This document shows, one piece after another, positions 32,434 to 43,083 of a DNA stretch of 64,000 nt. This DNA is from Deltaproteobacteria bacterium (GTDB lineage Bacteria; Myxococcota_A; UBA9160; SZUA-336), in assembly GCA_016875225.1 (NCBI GenBank), contig VGRW01000010.1, positions 1-64,000 on the forward strand, read 5' to 3'. Numbering within the stretch: the first letter of the stretch is position 1; each line of letters begins with the position of its first letter. The notes beneath the pieces are model-generated. The model had not been told where the DNA came from and ran no database searches. It saw only the letters and a program-made list of their open reading frames with translations. The position numbers and the translations under genes were made by a program.

Positions 32434-33331
32434 CCGCCGGATGGCGGAACACGACGTCGTCGCTTCGGACTCGTTCCCATGCGAAATCGGCCAGCAGCTC
32501 GCGCGGGGTCGCGGGCCGGGCGTTCGCGCGCAGGCCCGAAATCTGCGCGAGGCGCCCGCAGAACCCGGGACCGTCGCTTCTCGAAGCGATCTCGCGCCAG
32601 CCGACGGAGCCGTGCAGCTTCGCGAGCTTTCCGCCGCTCTCCTCGAGCAGCAGGAAGTGATGGCGGTAGCTCGGCGTCGGCACGCCGAGCGCGCGTTGCA
32701 GCACGACGTGGATCGCGGTCGAGCTCGCGAGGTCGCGGCCGCGCACGATCCGGGTGACTTCCGAAGCCGCGTCGTCCACGACCACCGCAAGGTGGTAGGC
32801 GATGGCACCGTCGCGTCTGCGCAGCACCGGGTCGCCCATCTCGCGCAGCGGGTCCTGCGACAGATCGAGACCCGATTCGTCCCGCAGCTCGACTCGTCCT
32901 TCCGGCAGGCGCAGCCGCAGCGCGCCGTCCGCCTCGCGCCAGCCGCCAGGAGGAAGCGCGCGCGCGCGACAGCGTCCGGTGTAGCGCCAGCCGCCGTCCG
33001 CTGCGTGCAGGCCGTTCCGCGCGACCTCGCTTCGAGAGCACGTGCAGGGATAGAGCAGGCCCGATGCCGCGAGCCGGTCCAGAGCCGCCTCGTGCGCTTC
33101 GCGCCTCTCGCTCTGCAGAGAGTCCACGTCCCAGTCCAGCCCGAGCCAGCCGAGCGCCGCTCGCATCTCGCGCGCGTGCTCGGGCGTGCAGCGCTCGGGG
33201 TCGACGTCCTCCAGCCGGAGCTCGAAGCGAGCCCCACGGCTGCGCGCGTCGAGCCAGGCCAGAAGGCCCGCGACGAGCGTGCCCGGGTGCGCGGGCCCGG
33301 ACGTCGTCGGTGCGAAGCGCGAGCGGTCCAC
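32429..33331 (-). CDS. gluQRS: Glutamyl-Q tRNA(Asp) synthetase
   Basis: A 300-residue truncated glutamyl-tRNA synthetase relative that attaches glutamate to queuosine in tRNA(Asp). It has the signature start [22 protein letters not shown] (HIGH-like), [10 protein letters not shown], a zinc-binding CTCS at about 97-100, and KLAKLHG in place of KMSKS. The anticodon-binding domain is absent, as in the family. I start at a GTG just before this motif; a TTG 36 bases upstream would add 12 unconserved residues. It is divergent from parE. Confidence 0.92.
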
Positions 33332-33396
33332 CGGGGCGCATCTTGACCTATCGAACGGATTCCTCAACCTCGGGATCTCCCCCCCGGGAGAAGCGA

Positions 33397-35247
33397 ATGG
33401 CCGCGGACCCGTCCGCCCGAAAGAGCTCCGATCGCAAGCCGGTCGCCTACGACGAGAGCACGATCCAGACCCTGGACGCGCTGGAGCACATCCGCCTGCG
33501 CACCGGCATGTACATCGGCCGGATCGGCGACGGCACGCACCCGCTCGACGGCGTCTACGTGATGCTGAAGGAGGTGATCGACAACGCCGTCGACGAGTTC
33601 ATCATGGGACACGGCCGGAAGATCGAGATCTCGCGCGACGGCAACGAGCTCACCGTGCGCGACTTCGGCCGCGGCATCCCGCTGGGCAAGGTGGTCGAGT
33701 GCGTGTCGCAGATCAACACCGGCGGCAAGTACAACGACGACGTCTTCCAGTTCTCGGTCGGCCTGAACGGCGTAGGCACCAAGGCGGTGAACGCGCTCTC
33801 GTCGGCGTTCGAGGTGATCTCGTACCGCGAGGGCAAGTTCCGCCGCGCCACGTTCGCTCAGGGCAAGCTCCTCTCCGACAAGCAGGGCAAGGACGCGACC
33901 GAGCCGGACGGAACCCGGGTCCGCTTCACGCCCGACCCCGCGATCTTCAAGACCTGGTCGTGGAACGAGGAGTTCATCGCGCACCGGCTCTGGTACTACG
34001 CGTACCTGAACGCTGGCCTGTCGCTGGTCTACGACGGCAAGAGCTTCCACAGCAAGGGGGGGCTCTCCGACCTGCTCGTGAAGGAGATCGGCGACGAGCC
34101 GCCGCTGTACGAGATCGTGCACGGAAAGCTCGATCGGCTCGAGTTCGCCTTCACCCACACGCACCAGTACGGCGAGACGTACTTCAGCTTCGTGAACGGC
34201 CAGTTCACCAACGACGGCGGCACGCACCAGGCGGCGTTCCGCGAGGGGCTGCTGCGCGGGGTGAACGAGTTCTCGAGCAAGGACTTCGCGGGCGAGGACG
34301 TGCGCGACGGAATCGTCGGCGCGGTCGCGGTCAAGATCCAGGATCCCGTCTTCGAGAGCCAGACCAAGAACAAGCTCGGCTCCACCGACGTGAAGCCGTG
34401 GATCACCAAGGAAGTGAAGGAGCAGGTGATCCTCTGGCTGCACCGCAACCCCGAGGCGGCCGAGGCGCTGCTCGAGAAGGTGCGCACCAACGAACGCATC
34501 CGCAAAGAGCTCGCGTCGATCAAGAAGCAGGCGCGCGAGCGAGCGAAGACGGTCGCGATCCGGATCCCGAAGCTGATCGACTGCAAGGTGCACTACGACG
34601 AGATCGCGGACCTGCGCCGCGACGAGACCACCATCTTCCTCACCGAGGGAAACTCCGCCGGCGGCGCGATGATCAAGTCTCGCGACGTGTTCACGCAGGC
34701 GATCTACACGCTGAAGGGAAAGCCGCTGAACTGCTACGGCCTGCAGCGCGACGCGGTCTACAAGAACGAGGAGCTCTACAACATCATGCGGGCGCTCGGC
34801 ATCGAGGACGGCCTCGACGGCCTGCGCTACGGCCGCGTCGTGATCGCCACCGACGCCGACGTGGACGGAATGCACATCCGCAACCTCCTGCTCACCTACT
34901 TCCTGCGCTACTTCGAGGAGCTCGTGCTGAAGGGCCACCTGTACATCCTGGAGACGCCGCTGTTCCGGGTGCGAAACAAGAAGCAGACGCGCTACTGCTA
35001 CAGCGAGCGGGAGCGCGACGAGGCGATCGCGGAGCTTTCCGGCAAGCCCGAGATCACGCGCTTCAAGGGGCTGGGCGAGATCTCGCCCGACGAGTTCGGG
35101 CAGTTCATCGGCGCCGACATCCGCCTGGTCCCCGTGTCGCTGGGAACGCTCGGCGAGGCGTCGGCGAGCCTGGAGTTCTGCATGGGCAAGAACACTCCCG
35201 CCCGGCGCGAGTTCATCGTCGACAACCTGATCTACGACGTGACCTAG
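33397..35247 (+). CDS. parE: DNA topoisomerase IV subunit B
   Basis: A 616-residue ATPase subunit of a type IIA topoisomerase. The GHKL ATP-binding domain has [11 protein letters not shown] and [13 protein letters not shown]; the TOPRIM domain has [11 protein letters not shown] and [15 protein letters not shown]; the C-terminus ends RREFIVDN. Length and the TOPRIM details ([18 protein letters not shown]) resemble the ParE found in Bacteroidetes and several environmental lineages. The ATG follows GGGAG with six bases between. parC begins one base after its stop. Confidence 0.94.
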
Positions 35248-35248
35248 C

Positions 35249-37162
35249 ATGGCGAACCTCGAGCCGCTGATGCGGCGCAACTTCCTGGAGTACGCGAGCT
35301 ACACGATCCTCGATCGCGCGCTCCCGGACCTGCGCGACGGCTGCAAGCCGGTGCAGCGGCGGCTTCTGCACACGCTCTTCACGATGGACGACGGCCTGTT
35401 CCACAAGGTCGCCAACGTGATCGGCGAGACGATGAAGCTGCACCCGCACGGCGACGTATCGATCGGCGACGCGCTGGTGGTGCTCGCGAACAAGGACTAC
35501 TTCGTCGAGCGGCAGGGAAACTTCGGGAATCCCGTCACCGGCCATCCGGCTGCGGCCGCGCGCTACATCGAGTGCCGGCTCACGCCGCTCGCGCGCGAGA
35601 CGCTCTTCAATCCGAACCTGACCGAGTTCGCGCCGAGCTACGACGGGCGCAGGCTCGAGCCGGTGTTCCTGCCCGCGAAGCTGCCGGTCACGCTCCTGCT
35701 CGGCATCGAAGGCATCGCCGTGGGCATGGCCACGCGCATCCTGCCGCACAACTTCGTCGAGCTGCTGCGCGGGCAGATCGCGATCCTGTCTGGCGAGAAA
35801 TACAAGCTCGTGCCCGACTTTCCGACCGGCGGCCTGATGGACGTCTCCGAGTACGACAAGGGCCGCGGCAAGGTGAAGGTGCGCGCGAGGATCGAGGCGC
35901 GCGGCGAGAAGACCGTCGTGATCCGCGAGATTCCGTTCGGCACCACGACCGAATCGCTGATCGCCTCGATCGAGGACGCGTCGCAGAAGGGCCGAGTGAA
36001 GATCACCGGCATCGACGACTTCACCACCGACAAGGTCGAGATCGAGCTCTCGCTTTCGCGCGGGGTCTACGCCGAGGAGGTGATCCCGCAGCTCTACGCG
36101 TACACCGAGTGCGAGGTCTCGCTCTCGTCCTCGCTGCTCGCGATCCGCGGGCAGAAACCCGTCGAGCTGACCGTGAACGAGGTGCTCGAGGACGCGACCG
36201 CGCGCCTGCGCGAGCAGATCAAGGCCGAGCTCGAGTGGGACGAGAGCCGACTCGTCGATCGCCAGCACTGGATGACGCTCGAGCGCGTCTTCATCGAGAA
36301 CCGCGTCTACAAGAAGATCGAGACCGCGAAGACCGAGGAGAAGGTCTTCGAGGCGGTCCACAAGGGCATGGCCGAGTTCCGCGCCGACTTCGTGCGCGAG
36401 ATGAACGACGACGACGTGAAGCGCCTGCTCGAAATCCGCATCCGCCGCATCTCCGCCTACGACATCGAGAAGCACGCAAGCGAGCTCGAAGCCGTGCTCT
36501 CCGAGCTGACGGAGGTGCGCAGAAAGCTCAAGCACCTGACCAAGACGGTGATCGCCTGGCTCGAGGGCCTGATCGAGAAGTACGGCGAGAAGTACAAGCG
36601 CCGCACCAAGGTCACGTCGATCGACGAGATCGACAAGAAGGCGGTGGCGACCGCGAATCTGCGCCTCTCCTACGACGACGAGACCGGCTTCTTCGGCTCC
36701 GACGTGCGCGGCTCCGAGTTCGCGCTCGCCGTCTCGGAGTACGACCGCGTGCTGGCGGTCTCGAGCGACGGCACCTACCGCGTCATGCAGGCGCCGAAGA
36801 AGGTGCTGCTGCCGCGCAAGGTGCTCTGGGTCGGCGTCTTCGATCCGGAGCAGGGGAAGGACTTCACGCTGGTCTGGCGCGACGCCGAACGCAACGCCTT
36901 CGGCAAGCGCGTGCACATCTCGAGCTACATCCGCGACAAGGAGTACCGCTTCTTCAAGGACGAGCAGGGCAAGCTCGACCTGCTGCTCGAGGACGACTTG
37001 CGGCCCGGGCGCGTGCACCTGCAGTTCGTGGCCGCGAAGCGGCAGCGCCAGAAGGAGTGCGATTTCGATCTGGGCGAGCTCGAGTTCGCCGGCCTCACCG
37101 CGCGCGGGCAGCGCCTGGCGCCGAAACCGGTCGCGCGCGTAAAACACGTTCCCGTGAAGTGA
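35249..37162 (+). CDS. parC: DNA topoisomerase IV subunit A, compact form
   Basis: A 637-residue breakage-reunion subunit, about 100 residues shorter than E. coli ParC because the C-terminal beta-pinwheel is reduced. The catalytic tyrosine is Tyr106 in AAAARYIECRL, with the adjacent arginine conserved. The helix carrying the quinolone-resistance determinants reads LHPHGDVSIGDALVV: the site of the usual drug-contact serine is Val70 and the glutamate is Asp74. It is coupled to parE (stop and start separated by one base). Confidence 0.93.
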   Translation: MANLEPLMRRNFLEYASYTILDRALPDLRDGCKPVQRRLLHTLFTMDDGLFHKVANVIGETMKLHPHGDVSIGDALVVLANKDYFVERQGNFGNPVTGHPAAAARYIECRLTPLARETLFNPNLTEFAPSYDGRRLEPVFLPAKLPVTLLLGIEGIAVGMATRILPHNFVELLRGQIAILSGEKYKLVPDFPTGGLMDVSEYDKGRGKVKVRARIEARGEKTVVIREIPFGTTTESLIASIEDASQKGRVKITGIDDFTTDKVEIELSLSRGVYAEEVIPQLYAYTECEVSLSSSLLAIRGQKPVELTVNEVLEDATARLREQIKAELEWDESRLVDRQHWMTLERVFIENRVYKKIETAKTEEKVFEAVHKGMAEFRADFVREMNDDDVKRLLEIRIRRISAYDIEKHASELEAVLSELTEVRRKLKHLTKTVIAWLEGLIEKYGEKYKRRTKVTSIDEIDKKAVATANLRLSYDDETGFFGSDVRGSEFALAVSEYDRVLAVSSDGTYRVMQAPKKVLLPRKVLWVGVFDPEQGKDFTLVWRDAERNAFGKRVHISSYIRDKEYRFFKDEQGKLDLLLEDDLRPGRVHLQFVAAKRQRQKECDFDLGELEFAGLTARGQRLAPKPVARVKHVPVK

Positions 37163-38177: not shown

Positions 38178-39056
38178 ATGTCGATCCAGGTGCTTCTCGT
38201 GGCGCTGCTCGCCCAGACCTGCGGGGGGCTCGCGCCGATCCTGACCAAGCTCGCGCTCGCGGGGATGGGGCCGTGGACCATGGTCGCCGCGCGTCAGATC
38301 CTCGGCGTGCTCGTACTGATCGCGATCGACCGGGCGACGCAGGGCGGCACGCGGAAGCGCGAGGCGTTCACGCGGCGCGACTGGGGCCTGCTGCTGCTGC
38401 TCTCCTGGGCCGGGTTCGCGCTGCCGCAGATCCTGCTCGCGAGCGGCATCGCGCTCTCGACGGGGACGAGCGGCGCCCTGCTCTCGCCGCTCGAGCCGAT
38501 CGGCATCCTCGCCGGCGGCTGGCTCTTCCTGCGCGAGCGGCTCTCTCCGCTTCGCATCGCGTCGGTCGTGATCGGGGCGATCGGCGCGCTGCTGATCATC
38601 CTGCAGGGAGCCGTCCGGCCCGAGCTCGGCGACCCGCTCGGAGACGGCCTGATCGCGCTCGGACACGTGGCCTGGGCGATCTACACCCTCGCGGCGAAGC
38701 CGCTGCTCGCGCGCCACGACGCGATGCGCGTCTCGCTCGCAGCGGTGCTGCTCTCGATTCCGCCGCTGCTTCTGCTCGCGCTCGGCGAGGACTTCTCGCT
38801 CGAGCGCGCGCTGCCGGCGCTCGTCTGGGTCGTCGCGCTGGCGCTACTGGCGACCGCGCTGGGCTCGTGGTCGTGGAACTGGGCGCTCGGTCGGATGAGC
38901 GCTGGAACCATGGCGGCGTTCATCTTCGTGCAGCCTGTCGTCGGCCTCGCGGCCGGTCACTTCGCGCTGGGCGAGCCGGTCGGCGCGCTCGCGCTGGTGG
39001 GGGCCGCCGTGATCCTCGGCGGTGTCACGCTCGAGGCTGCACGCGGGGGCGCCTGA
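38178..39056 (+). CDS. EamA/DMT-superfamily transporter
   Basis: A 292-residue inner-membrane exporter with two tandem EamA domains of five helices each, the second ending in WNWALGRMSAGTMAAFIFVQPVVG, the typical DMT hinge. Substrates in the family are amino acids, drugs or nucleotide-like metabolites; none can be named here. It is convergent with the 1352-residue gene and overlaps its 3' end by 32 bases. Confidence 0.9.
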   Translation: MSIQVLLVALLAQTCGGLAPILTKLALAGMGPWTMVAARQILGVLVLIAIDRATQGGTRKREAFTRRDWGLLLLLSWAGFALPQILLASGIALSTGTSGALLSPLEPIGILAGGWLFLRERLSPLRIASVVIGAIGALLIILQGAVRPELGDPLGDGLIALGHVAWAIYTLAAKPLLARHDAMRVSLAAVLLSIPPLLLLALGEDFSLERALPALVWVVALALLATALGSWSWNWALGRMSAGTMAAFIFVQPVVGLAAGHFALGEPVGALALVGAAVILGGVTLEAARGGA

Positions 39057-42000
39057 GCGCGCCGCGGCGCCACAGACCGCCGGTCCCGAAGGACTCCCAG
39101 CCGAAGCGCAGCCAGCCGAGCAGCGCGTGCGCGAGCCAGAGCGCCCAGGCCAGCATCGCGAGCCGGTACACGAAGAGCGGCACCGAGAGCGCGAACGCGC
39201 CCGGAAGCTCGGCCGCGGAGCGGTCCTGGTACCAGCGCAGCAGCTCGCGCGTCGACCCGTTGCCGCGGATCTGCATCTCTGGCGAGCCGAGCAGCCCCTG
39301 CTGGATCGCGAAGATCAGGCCCCCGAGCGCGAGGAGCGTCCAGCCGACGAGCGCGACCTGAAGCGTGACGAAGGCGACGTCGCCGTGAGGCGGGTGCGCG
39401 CGACGCCAGCCGAGCAGAAGCAGCCAGCCGACGATCGCGAGCGCGAGCCACACCTCCACCTGCGTGAGTCCGACGAGGAGCAGGATCCAGCTCGTGACTC
39501 CGAGCGGCGTGAGCTTCGTTTGCGCCAGGCCGAGCGCCAGCAGCAGCGCGACCGCGAGCATGCTCCAGAACAGAACCGCGGGACCCAGACGGGGCCCGCC
39601 GAGCACGAGCACCCAGCGGTCGAGCGGAAGCTCGAGCTCGAGCTCGACGTTCACGGCGTGCGATCCGACACCGACCGGTGGCATGCGCCAGAGAAAGGAG
39701 ATTCCCATGGGCGTTCGCCAGGCGAGCTCCGCCGCGTGCGCGCCGGGCCGGATCGGCAGCACCACCCGGCTCCCGAGCTGGCGCAGCGGCTGTACCTCGC
39801 CGTCGATCGTCACGCTCGAAAGCTCCGCGCCCTCCGGCAGGGTGACTTCGTGCTGCGCGCCGCGGCTCGCGCGCACGCTGAGCGCGAGCTTCGCGTCGCT
39901 CGCGCGCAGACCGGGCGTCACGCGCAGCGCCGCGCGGTCGATCGTGAGCGTCGGCCCGGGCACGGCCTCGGGCCGCGTCACTCGTAGCTCGATCGCCTCG
40001 CCGGGCCAGGGCCGGAACTCGCGCGCGCGCGGCGCGGCCAAGCCCTCGCCTTGGATCGCCGGAATTCCCGTTGCATCGACGTGCCAGATCGGCGAGGCGT
40101 CCACGCGCCACACCTCGAGCCAGAGATCGCTCTCGGGCGCCGCGAGCGCGATCCGATCCGTCTGCGCGAGCGAGGAGCCGAAGACGACCTCGGCTGCGTC
40201 GGGCGCGAAGCTCACCTGGGCGCGGCCGTCGACCACCCGCACGCCCGCGCTCGTCACGGACTCGCCCGCGAGAAGCGGAACTTCCAGGAACAGGGCCTTC
40301 CCTGCGGGGGTCAGGCGCGCGACGCGCGTCTCGACCTGCCAGACGATCCCGAGCGAGAGCTCGCGCTCGATGCGAACGAAATTCGGGAGCTCTCCGGGCT
40401 CGAGCGCCTTCGGTCCCTCGCCTGCGGCGCGCGCGATCCGCGCCAGCTGCAGGCTCGAATCCGCGCGGCCATCGTCGTGAAGGCCGTGCACACGCCAGCC
40501 CGAGACCTGGACCTCGACCCGGTGCGGGCGCAGCGGCAGCGGCAGCTCGACCGCCTCGCGGTCGGGAAGCGGACCCTCCAACACCACTTGGTGGACCCCA
40601 GGCTCGAGTCCGAGCCAGAGCACACCGTCGGCATCGCGCGCGAGTGCGCTCGCGGGCGCGCCGTCCACGCTCACGAGCTCAGGCGTCCAATCGGCCGCCC
40701 CGCCCGGAAGCGGCACGGCCGTGCGCGCTGCCGCCGCGATCTCGATTCGCGCGCGCATCCGCAGCGCGTCGATCTCGAGCCGCATTCGCGGGCTCTCGGC
40801 ACAGGTCGGCGCGCAGGAGGGAAGCTCGAGCAGTCGGGCTCGGAGCTGCTCGAGCAGATCGGCCGGCGGGAACTCGCTCGCGCGCGCGGCGCCCGTCGGC
40901 GCGAGCAGGAACGCCAGCGCCGCGAGCGAAGCGGCTGCCGCTCCGCGCCGTGCGCGCAGCCACGCGCCGAGGCGGTCGTCGAAGTCGCTCGCAGCCGCGA
41001 AGAGCGCGATCAGAAGCGCCACCCGCAGCCAGCCGAGCGCGAAGTTCAGAGCGGGCGGAACGAGCCAGAGCCGAAGCTCCTGCATGCGCTCCACCGGTCC
41101 GTTCCAGCCGAGCCGGACGCTGCGCCAGGTCCACGAGGGCAGGCCCGGCCCCGTCGAGACGAGCGCGCCGGGCTCGGGCGCGTAGTAGCTCGAGCGCGCG
41201 CGCTTTCGCGCCGCCTCGCGCGGCCTTCTCTCGTAGGCCCGGCCCTCGTCCGCTTCGCTCGTGGCGAGCGGCTGCTCGGCAAGCTCCCCTTTCGCGAGAA
41301 CGGCGGACGCCGGCGCAAGCGACGCCGGAAACGCGAGCGCGTCGGGCTGCTCGAGCGCGGGGTACACCGCCATGCGTAGCTGGCCGATCGCGAACGGCAC
41401 CGCGATCGCGACCAGGAGCACGAAGGCCGCGAGCCGCAGTCCGAGAAGCAGCGTGCGGAGCCGGCCCTCGGCCAGCAGGCGCACGAGCGCTTGTGCGGCC
41501 AGGAGCAGGAGCCACGCGTAGCGCGGCGCGCCGGATTCGGGCCAGATCAGCGCGAGCGCGACGGCCGCGACCGCACCCCAAGCGCGCGAGCGCAGCCGCG
41601 AGATCGCGAGCGCGATCACGAGCACCAGGAACAGGTCGAGCAAAGTCCAGGAACGGATCCACGTCTCGGAGACCGAATCCACGCCGCTGGCGTGGAGGAT
41701 GCGCCAGCCCGGCGGCAGCTGCAGCGTTGCCGCTACGCTCGCGAAGTCGTGGTCCCAGCCGACCGCGGGAAGCGCGCGAAGCACGCCGTCGAAGCGGCCG
41801 TCGGCCTCGATCGCCGCGCTGCCCTGGCGAAGCTCGACGCCCGGGGCCGAGCCCTCGCCGACGCGCCCGATCAGCTGATCTACGCCGTCGACCGAGACGC
41901 GGCCGAGCTGGGACGGCTGCGGCATGTCGAGCCGCCAGCTGCGCGAGAGCCTTCCCGAGATGCGATCGTGGAAGGTGTAGCCGGTGCCGGCGAAATCGAG

Positions 42001-43083
42001 CCAGAGCGTTCGCTCGAGCGCGAGCTCGTCGGCCGCTGGATCGGCGTCGCCGCGGTGCTTCTCCGCGAGCGTCATCGCGCTCTCCTGCACGACGGCATAC
42101 GCCGGAAGGTGTCGCCACTCGGCGGGAAGCGTGGTCTGCTGCGGATCGACCGCCGGCACGCCCTGGACCTCGACGGCGCGAAGTCTCGGCTCGGCCTCGA
42201 ACGCCCAGATCTCCGTTTCCGGCCAGGGCGGCGCGGCGGCCGCCGGCCCGAGCGACGACACGGGCGCGACGCTGCGCGCGCGCACGCTCACCAGCCAGTC
42301 CCCGGGGCTCACCTGCACGCGAAGAAGGCCGTCGCTCTCGAGCCGCGCCGGAAGCGCGCTCTCGAGCTCGAGCGGGACCAGCCCGGCCGGGAGCACCGGC
42401 CCGAGCGAGACCTCGCGGGCCGTCCCCGAGACCCGCAGCTCGATTCGCGTCTCGAGCTCGAGCGGGATCGAGTCGCGCACTAGCCGGTTCACGACGAGAT
42501 CGATCCGACTCTCGGCGGTGTCGGGAGTCGACCTCTCGCGCAGCCAGACGCGTCCGTCCGGATCGCGTCGCGGACGTTCGATCCCAGCGCCCGCGACGCG
42601 CAGCGAGAGCAGCGCCGTGTCGGGCGGGACCACGATCCCTTCGGGCAGCGTCGAATAGCCGAAGGCTCCCGTCGCGACGTGGCGACCGGCTTCGAGCCAG
42701 ACCGAGGGCGAGCCTTCGCGCAGCAGGACGCTCGCGGGCGCCCCGTCGACCTCGACGTCCTGCGGCCAGAGCGCGGCGTCGCCGGGCAGGCGCAGCCACG
42801 CCGCTACGTCGAGCCGAACCTCGCTTCGAAAGCGCCCGGCGAGCGCCCCCATGTCGAGCTCGACGCGCGCCGGAAATGAACACAGTCGAGTGTCGGTCCT
42901 GCCGAGCACCAGCGCGCAGCCCGCGTCCTCCGAGCCGCGCAGCACCCAGTCGATCCATGGTGCCAGCGGCTCCGGCACCTGCGAGCGCAGCAGCGGCTCG
43001 CCCGCGGAGAGCATCGGAATCGAAACGAGACTCGAGCCCACCAAGAGCCAGAGCCGAAGGCTCCGGCGAATCACGCCTCGCAT
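39025..43083 (-). CDS. Large membrane protein with internally duplicated envelope module
   Basis: A 1352-residue protein of unknown function. A signal or anchor helix is at about 8-24. Residues ~55-460 and ~750-1150 are two diverged copies of one beta-rich module: each has a CxxxxxCxx... start, an EVDGAPAS / SVDGAPAS strand with ~30 following residues aligned, and an inner GVPAVD / GIPAIQ segment before a Trp-Arg-Pro-rich stretch. The parts between and after contain about ten hydrophobic helices (roughly 475-570, 675-735 and 1165-1260, 1295-1325). It may display two envelope domains from a multi-helix scaffold. TAGACT lies seven bases before the ATG. Confidence 0.75.
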   Translation of the reverse strand: MRGVIRRSLRLWLLVGSSLVSIPMLSAGEPLLRSQVPEPLAPWIDWVLRGSEDAGCALVLGRTDTRLCSFPARVELDMGALAGRFRSEVRLDVAAWLRLPGDAALWPQDVEVDGAPASVLLREGSPSVWLEAGRHVATGAFGYSTLPEGIVVPPDTALLSLRVAGAGIERPRRDPDGRVWLRERSTPDTAESRIDLVVNRLVRDSIPLELETRIELRVSGTAREVSLGPVLPAGLVPLELESALPARLESDGLLRVQVSPGDWLVSVRARSVAPVSSLGPAAAAPPWPETEIWAFEAEPRLRAVEVQGVPAVDPQQTTLPAEWRHLPAYAVVQESAMTLAEKHRGDADPAADELALERTLWLDFAGTGYTFHDRISGRLSRSWRLDMPQPSQLGRVSVDGVDQLIGRVGEGSAPGVELRQGSAAIEADGRFDGVLRALPAVGWDHDFASVAATLQLPPGWRILHASGVDSVSETWIRSWTLLDLFLVLVIALAISRLRSRAWGAVAAVALALIWPESGAPRYAWLLLLAAQALVRLLAEGRLRTLLLGLRLAAFVLLVAIAVPFAIGQLRMAVYPALEQPDALAFPASLAPASAVLAKGELAEQPLATSEADEGRAYERRPREAARKRARSSYYAPEPGALVSTGPGLPSWTWRSVRLGWNGPVERMQELRLWLVPPALNFALGWLRVALLIALFAAASDFDDRLGAWLRARRGAAAASLAALAFLLAPTGAARASEFPPADLLEQLRARLLELPSCAPTCAESPRMRLEIDALRMRARIEIAAAARTAVPLPGGAADWTPELVSVDGAPASALARDADGVLWLGLEPGVHQVVLEGPLPDREAVELPLPLRPHRVEVQVSGWRVHGLHDDGRADSSLQLARIARAAGEGPKALEPGELPNFVRIERELSLGIVWQVETRVARLTPAGKALFLEVPLLAGESVTSAGVRVVDGRAQVSFAPDAAEVVFGSSLAQTDRIALAAPESDLWLEVWRVDASPIWHVDATGIPAIQGEGLAAPRAREFRPWPGEAIELRVTRPEAVPGPTLTIDRAALRVTPGLRASDAKLALSVRASRGAQHEVTLPEGAELSSVTIDGEVQPLRQLGSRVVLPIRPGAHAAELAWRTPMGISFLWRMPPVGVGSHAVNVELELELPLDRWVLVLGGPRLGPAVLFWSMLAVALLLALGLAQTKLTPLGVTSWILLLVGLTQVEVWLALAIVGWLLLLGWRRAHPPHGDVAFVTLQVALVGWTLLALGGLIFAIQQGLLGSPEMQIRGNGSTRELLRWYQDRSAAELPGAFALSVPLFVYRLAMLAWALWLAHALLGWLRFGWESFGTGGLWRRGALRRPRVQPRA

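Follow-up and report, generated by a model that had tools for sequence, protein, structure and literature searches.

Several described systems share part of the plan of the protein analyzed in this work. In Bradyrhizobium, FbcH is encoded by one ORF for cytochrome b/c1, and the resulting polyprotein is cut at an internal signal peptide. CreD (PF06123), an inner-membrane protein, shows an N-terminal hydrophobic segment, a periplasmic domain, and several transmembrane (TM) helices at the C-terminal end. The M1 aminopeptidases and LTA4H have an N-terminal domain with a beta fold that precedes the catalytic domain. In the eukaryotic oligosaccharyltransferase, the non-catalytic subunit Ost1, also known as ribophorin I, carries tandem luminal beta domains before a membrane anchor that is formed by one TM helix. 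The two luminal beta domains of Ost1 are similar to each other (PMC7226087).

In the window, that is, the whole stretch of 64,000 nucleotides that was analyzed, an intact ORF of 1352 residues is present on the minus strand; it starts with an ATG at 43083, and its GC content by codon position (0.78/0.54/0.88) is coding-like. The parts of the encoded precursor are listed in Table 1.

Table 1. Parts of the 1352-residue precursor and their positions in the window; a slash marks a predicted signal peptidase cut
Feature	Residues	Coordinates	Strand	Basis
Whole gene, 1352-residue precursor		39025..43083	-	ORF, sequence, AlphaFold2 models
Order of the precursor: signal peptide, beta module 1, four TM helices, loop, TM5, internal signal peptide, beta module 2, four TM helices, loop, TM5
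N-terminal signal peptide, SIPMLSA/GEP	1-27	43003..43083	-	Sequence, hydropathy; A.A at the corresponding site in 32/40 homologues
Periplasmic beta module 1, invariant C56 and C68	29-475	41659..42999	-	AlphaFold2, invariant columns, Foldseek best match Ost1
TM helices 1-4 of half 1	about 476-573	41365..41658	-	Hydropathy, AlphaFold2 helices
Half-1 loop, predicted periplasmic; start variable, later part conserved (TGPGLPSWTWRSVRLGWNGPV)	574-676	41056..41364	-	Conservation; AlphaFold2 strands near 654-659 and 669-675
TM5 of half 1	677-699	40987..41055	-	Hydropathy, AlphaFold2
Internal signal peptide: charged WLRARRG, hydrophobic core, AARA/SEFPP ending (APTGAARA/SEFPP)	701-735	40879..40983	-	A.A in 36/40 aligned homologues; gene split here in G415
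Periplasmic beta module 2, invariant C757 and C761	736-1165	39589..40878	-	AlphaFold2; Foldseek Ost1; hhalign to module 1
TM helices 1-4 of half 2	about 1166-1265	39289..39588	-	Hydropathy, AlphaFold2
Half-2 conserved loop, SPEMQIRGNGSTRELLRWYQDR, predicted periplasmic	about 1266-1302	39178..39288	-	Conservation, AlphaFold2 hairpin
TM5 of half 2	about 1303-1333	39085..39177	-	Hydropathy, AlphaFold2

The initial annotation described this protein as built from a duplicated envelope module, and the agreement of the two halves in sequence, in profile and in structure model bears this out: the ORF is a genuine duplication. The motif pairs mentioned there are present in both halves, i.e. EVDGAPAS (residues 111-118) with SVDGAPAS (805-812), GVPAVD (308-313) with GIPAIQ (1006-1011), and the Trp-rich stretches of the W..E.W type near residues 287-293 and 988-992. 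The self-alignment proposed as a check pairs residues 68-457 with 761-1153 at a local score of 175, far above the values obtained with shuffled sequences (best of 500, 92; mean 52.6, SD 9.1), and BLASTP of one half against the other gives an E-value of 2e-6. Using hhalign, beta module 1 aligns with module 2 over 376 columns (E 4.9e-13), and the alignment of the whole halves (E 1.1e-15, 492 columns) extends from the module into the membrane part. The claim that the modules are separated by membrane helices was correct, but the duplication is not confined to the module and includes a five-TM bundle and a loop: in each copy the periplasmic beta module is followed by four TM helices, then by a conserved loop in the periplasm, and finally by TM5.

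The halves were also modeled separately with AlphaFold2 (half 1, m463813a567a1, mean pLDDT 77; half 2, m20dbf3a4f348, mean pLDDT 82). Both models show, in this order, a long beta-rich module, four helices, a loop with two strands, and the last helix; in the beta-rich modules most of the blocks have a pLDDT of 80-95. Unrelated folds were not found, given that the order of strands and helices is equal in the two halves and the top match in the PDB is identical. This match, obtained with Foldseek, is Ost1/ribophorin I (E 6e-7 and 3e-9), and a second group of matches, common to both halves, includes the N-terminal beta domains of the M1 family and LTA4H, with about 150-230 aligned columns. The global TM-scores are only 0.14-0.30, therefore the likeness to Ost1 and to the M1 proteins is to be read at the level of domains and not of the whole protein. 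As in Ost1, each module seems to contain a domain repeat: its first and last domains align to each other with hhalign E-values of 2e-6 in half 2 and 7e-4 in half 1, these being single-pair values. In contrast with Ost1, each half has five TM helices instead of one, the protein has two modules instead of one, and sequence similarity is absent; a profile search of the PDB sequences with either half recovered no Ost1 and nothing else of relevance. The window protein is a membrane protein that, unlike the M1 enzymes, is devoid of the catalytic domain; an M1 metallopeptidase was rejected because the HExxH zinc motif and the GxMEN motif are both absent.

The protein contains only four cysteines, one invariant pair in each module, and each pair probably forms a structural disulphide. 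The location of the beta modules and the conserved loops in the periplasm is deduced from the signal peptide, the hydrophobic segments, and the positive charges found in each half behind TM1 and TM3 and also at the C terminus. The homologue from Paraliomyxa miuraensis (L027:7965-13136) carries in its half-1 loop an inserted AgmX/PglI C-terminal (TonB-like) domain (residues 721-956), which also scores to GltG; this was the sole carrier among 17 members scanned. Such a domain is expected in the periplasm, which fits a periplasmic half-1 loop.

Immediately ahead of module 2, almost all homologues show a charged segment, then a hydrophobic core and an ending of the signal-peptidase type (for instance VPARA/D and KPAYA/D; GAARA/SEFPP in the window gene). 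From this sequence, signal peptidase I is predicted to cut between residues 735 and 736. A set of 40 non-redundant full-length homologues was used to count the A.A motif, which is found at the junction in 36 of them, against a mean of 26.9 in shuffles of the same segment. In comparison, the motif ends the N-terminal signal peptide in 32 of 40, a similar value, and where other TM helices are predicted to emerge into the periplasm it appears in only 1-11 of 40; it is also present in 24 of 40 at the end of TM1 of half 1, a helix that runs from out to in. Given that an Ala-rich composition raises the chance of finding A.A, which taken alone is weak evidence, the argument is carried by the position of the motif and its context. 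In 26 of the 40 homologues the motif is followed by an E, D or Q, and in 28 it lies 7-9 residues ahead of an aligned Leu. In a wider set, the loose -3/-1 motif [AVSTGIL].[AGS], a very permissive pattern, is found at the junction in 92 of 94 sequences, and in some members of the order to which the gammaproteobacterium G415 belongs the spacer is longer or the cut site is less clear. In-frame ATG, GTG or TTG codons are absent at residues 690-735 of the window gene, which makes internal initiation unlikely in this gene.

A hydrophobic segment ending in A.A may persist as an uncut TM helix. If this happened at the junction, the protein would be a single chain with 11 TM helices in all, in which the two beta modules are a covalently tied pseudo-dimer. 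The segment has the length and hydrophobicity required to cross the membrane, all the intact members but one are encoded by one fused ORF, and a fixed one-to-one pairing would explain why the fusion has been kept; we regard an uncut chain as less likely than not. Against it stands the signal-peptidase-type ending, which distinguishes the junction from the places where other TM helices emerge into the periplasm, and also the exception among the intact members. In G415 the two halves are separate genes, cleanly split exactly at the junction: half 1 is an ORF of 717 residues that stops right after TM5 and is followed by an unrelated ORF, and half 2 is an ORF of 691 residues that lies behind a complete unrelated ORF and has its own Met and a new signal peptide (MNFKRKFTYFHLCVWLVGNLFAALTYA/ES). 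This split was observed in one genome, a draft assembly in which the two halves lie on separate contigs. Half 1 of G415 and the fused gene of the related genome G704 share their upstream neighbour, which suggests that the split is probably derived. A second clean split at the junction was not found among the members examined; the short or split forms of G113, G206, G233, G302, G183, G225, G411, G615 and others were discarded since they correspond to contig ends or frame breaks. In G737 (L190:2003-7371), approximately 1 kb of extra DNA interrupts the gene at the start of the half-1 membrane part, and both parts are otherwise intact.

The internal signal peptide together with the two-gene version of G415 led us to read the precursor as cut into two subunits. 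We consider it somewhat more probable than its contrary (roughly 0.55) that signal peptidase I cuts the precursor into two related five-TM subunits, which pair up in a heterodimer whose periplasmic modules are non-enzymatic and serve in binding. According to this proposal, an ancient head-to-tail duplication would have involved a full secreted-membrane-protein unit, i.e. signal peptide, periplasmic beta module of about 430 residues with one Cys pair, four TM helices, loop, and fifth TM helix, and the second copy would have retained its signal peptide. The chain would be inserted into the inner membrane by Sec, and signal peptidase I would cut it twice, behind residues 27 and 735; the products, two subunits with five TM helices each and about 708 and 617 residues long, would remain paired as a heterodimer whose beta modules both lie in the periplasm. 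While cleavage and heterodimer formation are what we infer for the halves of the window protein, the role of the modules is a guess and the weakest step: the resemblance of their fold to the tandem beta domains of Ost1 and to M1 N-domains, and the lack of the M1 zinc motif, suggest that they could be non-enzymatic and act in binding or as a scaffold for envelope proteins or polymers. The initial annotation of a single protein of 1352 residues thus holds for the ORF, but as a description of the mature form it would need to be amended. Since all the other intact members are fused, the fusion itself may matter.

The proposed processing resembles that of FbcH, as both cases would involve one ORF, two membrane subunits and an internal signal peptide at the junction; in the family of the window protein, the features of an internally cut polyprotein are the signal-peptide-like segment at the junction and the separate genes for the halves in G415. 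The difference is that FbcH joins unrelated respiratory subunits, whereas the two parts of the window protein are paralogues and their cleavage is a prediction.

The presence of two homologous TM bundles with conserved and partly polar loops could also denote a transporter or a channel, in which the five-TM bundles form a pseudo-symmetric pore and the beta modules are periplasmic accessory domains. We judge this improbable, given that a transporter family was not matched in Pfam or NCBIfam, conservation is spread across the beta modules and the periplasmic loops, and some of the TM helices in the AlphaFold2 half models are just 11-14 residues long. That the protein could be a divergent Ost1-like accessory subunit of an oligosaccharyltransferase, working with an STT3-type enzyme, is suggested by the best PDB match of both halves and is nonetheless very improbable, being largely refuted by the phyletic pattern, since an STT3 match was not found in the window's own genome and STT3-type matches occur in 6 of the 15 genomes of the class that have the protein versus 50 of the 76 that do not, i.e. 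without a positive association, and the fold match is domain-level and lacks sequence similarity.

The statement that this plan belongs to no characterised family stands. With Pfam-A the window protein gave only Reg_prop (E 0.05, below its cut-off), NCBIfam gave no match, and the scan of 17 homologues against both collections revealed no family in common; a description of a two-module family was not found in a literature search. CreD, a first guess from the domain plan, was rejected because the hhalign comparison of CreD proteins of related genomes with either half gave a probability of 0.4-0.5%, and a Pfam match was absent. Among 60 relatives, CreD and the two-module protein do not overlap, numbers too small to reach a conclusion, with the exception of G019, a genome with CreD that also has a truncated remnant inside a contig (L115:2892-4013) comprising just the start of module 1.

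The search for homologues with one or two modules, which had been suggested as a check, revealed that two-module members are widespread and that distant one-module relatives exist. Of the 91 genomes of the window's class, 15 have the two-module protein; among the genomes sampled, it is present in 114 of 379 from the window's phylum and in 42 of 321 gammaproteobacteria (the class of Thiocapsa), and the order of G415 has it in 34 of 43 genomes. Matches include Nannocystis, Thiocapsa, Mizugakiibacter and others, and nearly always there is one copy per genome. The plasmid records contain one match, in an Azoarcus megaplasmid, which was the one annotated record found ('hypothetical protein'), and the phage records searched contain none. 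In a tree of the modules, the N modules group together (support 100/99) and so do the C modules (87/99); hence, the duplication is most simply explained as a single event older than the spread of the protein over these phyla. The one-module relatives, found in 6 of the 360 genomes sampled from the window's phylum (L107/L120-L125; L107:4134-6833), are a separate unannotated family that shares with the window protein the signal peptide, the CxxxC motif, the beta module, the TM helices, the loop and the last TM helix, and differs from it in having a single module. They are closer to half 2 (hhalign E 2.6e-17, 535 columns) than to half 1 (E 8e-5), and two of the genomes, G355 and G356, also carry the two-module protein.

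Regarding the gene neighbourhood, in the window the gene is located 21 bases behind a rarD-like gene and overlaps a convergent EamA-like gene by 32 bases; the rarD-like gene was not found beside the homologues that were fetched. A conserved neighbour was not found across 36 loci, nor in 18 further loci, mostly gammaproteobacterial, beyond generic kinases, regulators, ABC ATPases and the like, with the exceptions of mpl in two genomes and of one neighbour common to two relatives. In the gammaproteobacterial loci L156 and L161, the gene starts a few bases behind a same-strand ORF that, by eye, resembles the murein-recycling ligase gene mpl. Synteny names neither a partner nor a function. Elsewhere in the window (33064-37162, plus strand), there are tandem genes that by eye resemble those for the type II topoisomerase subunits ParE and ParC.

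A large protein that is present in roughly 30% of the sampled genomes of the phylum and in 13% of the sampled gammaproteobacteria has yet no family model, and the occurrence of an Ost1-like fold in a bacterial envelope protein merits attention. If the internal cut is real, for which the cleavage reading predicts a new N-terminus at residue 736, this would be a polyprotein with paralogous products, in which duplication and processing would yield a heterodimer from one gene. As a tentative and broader view, which we hold with less than even confidence, the family may represent a widespread unrecognised envelope machine in which an internal cut generates two paralogous five-TM subunits with Ost1-like modules; this pseudo-symmetric heterodimer could have a general role, not bound to an operon, in the biogenesis or quality control of the envelope.
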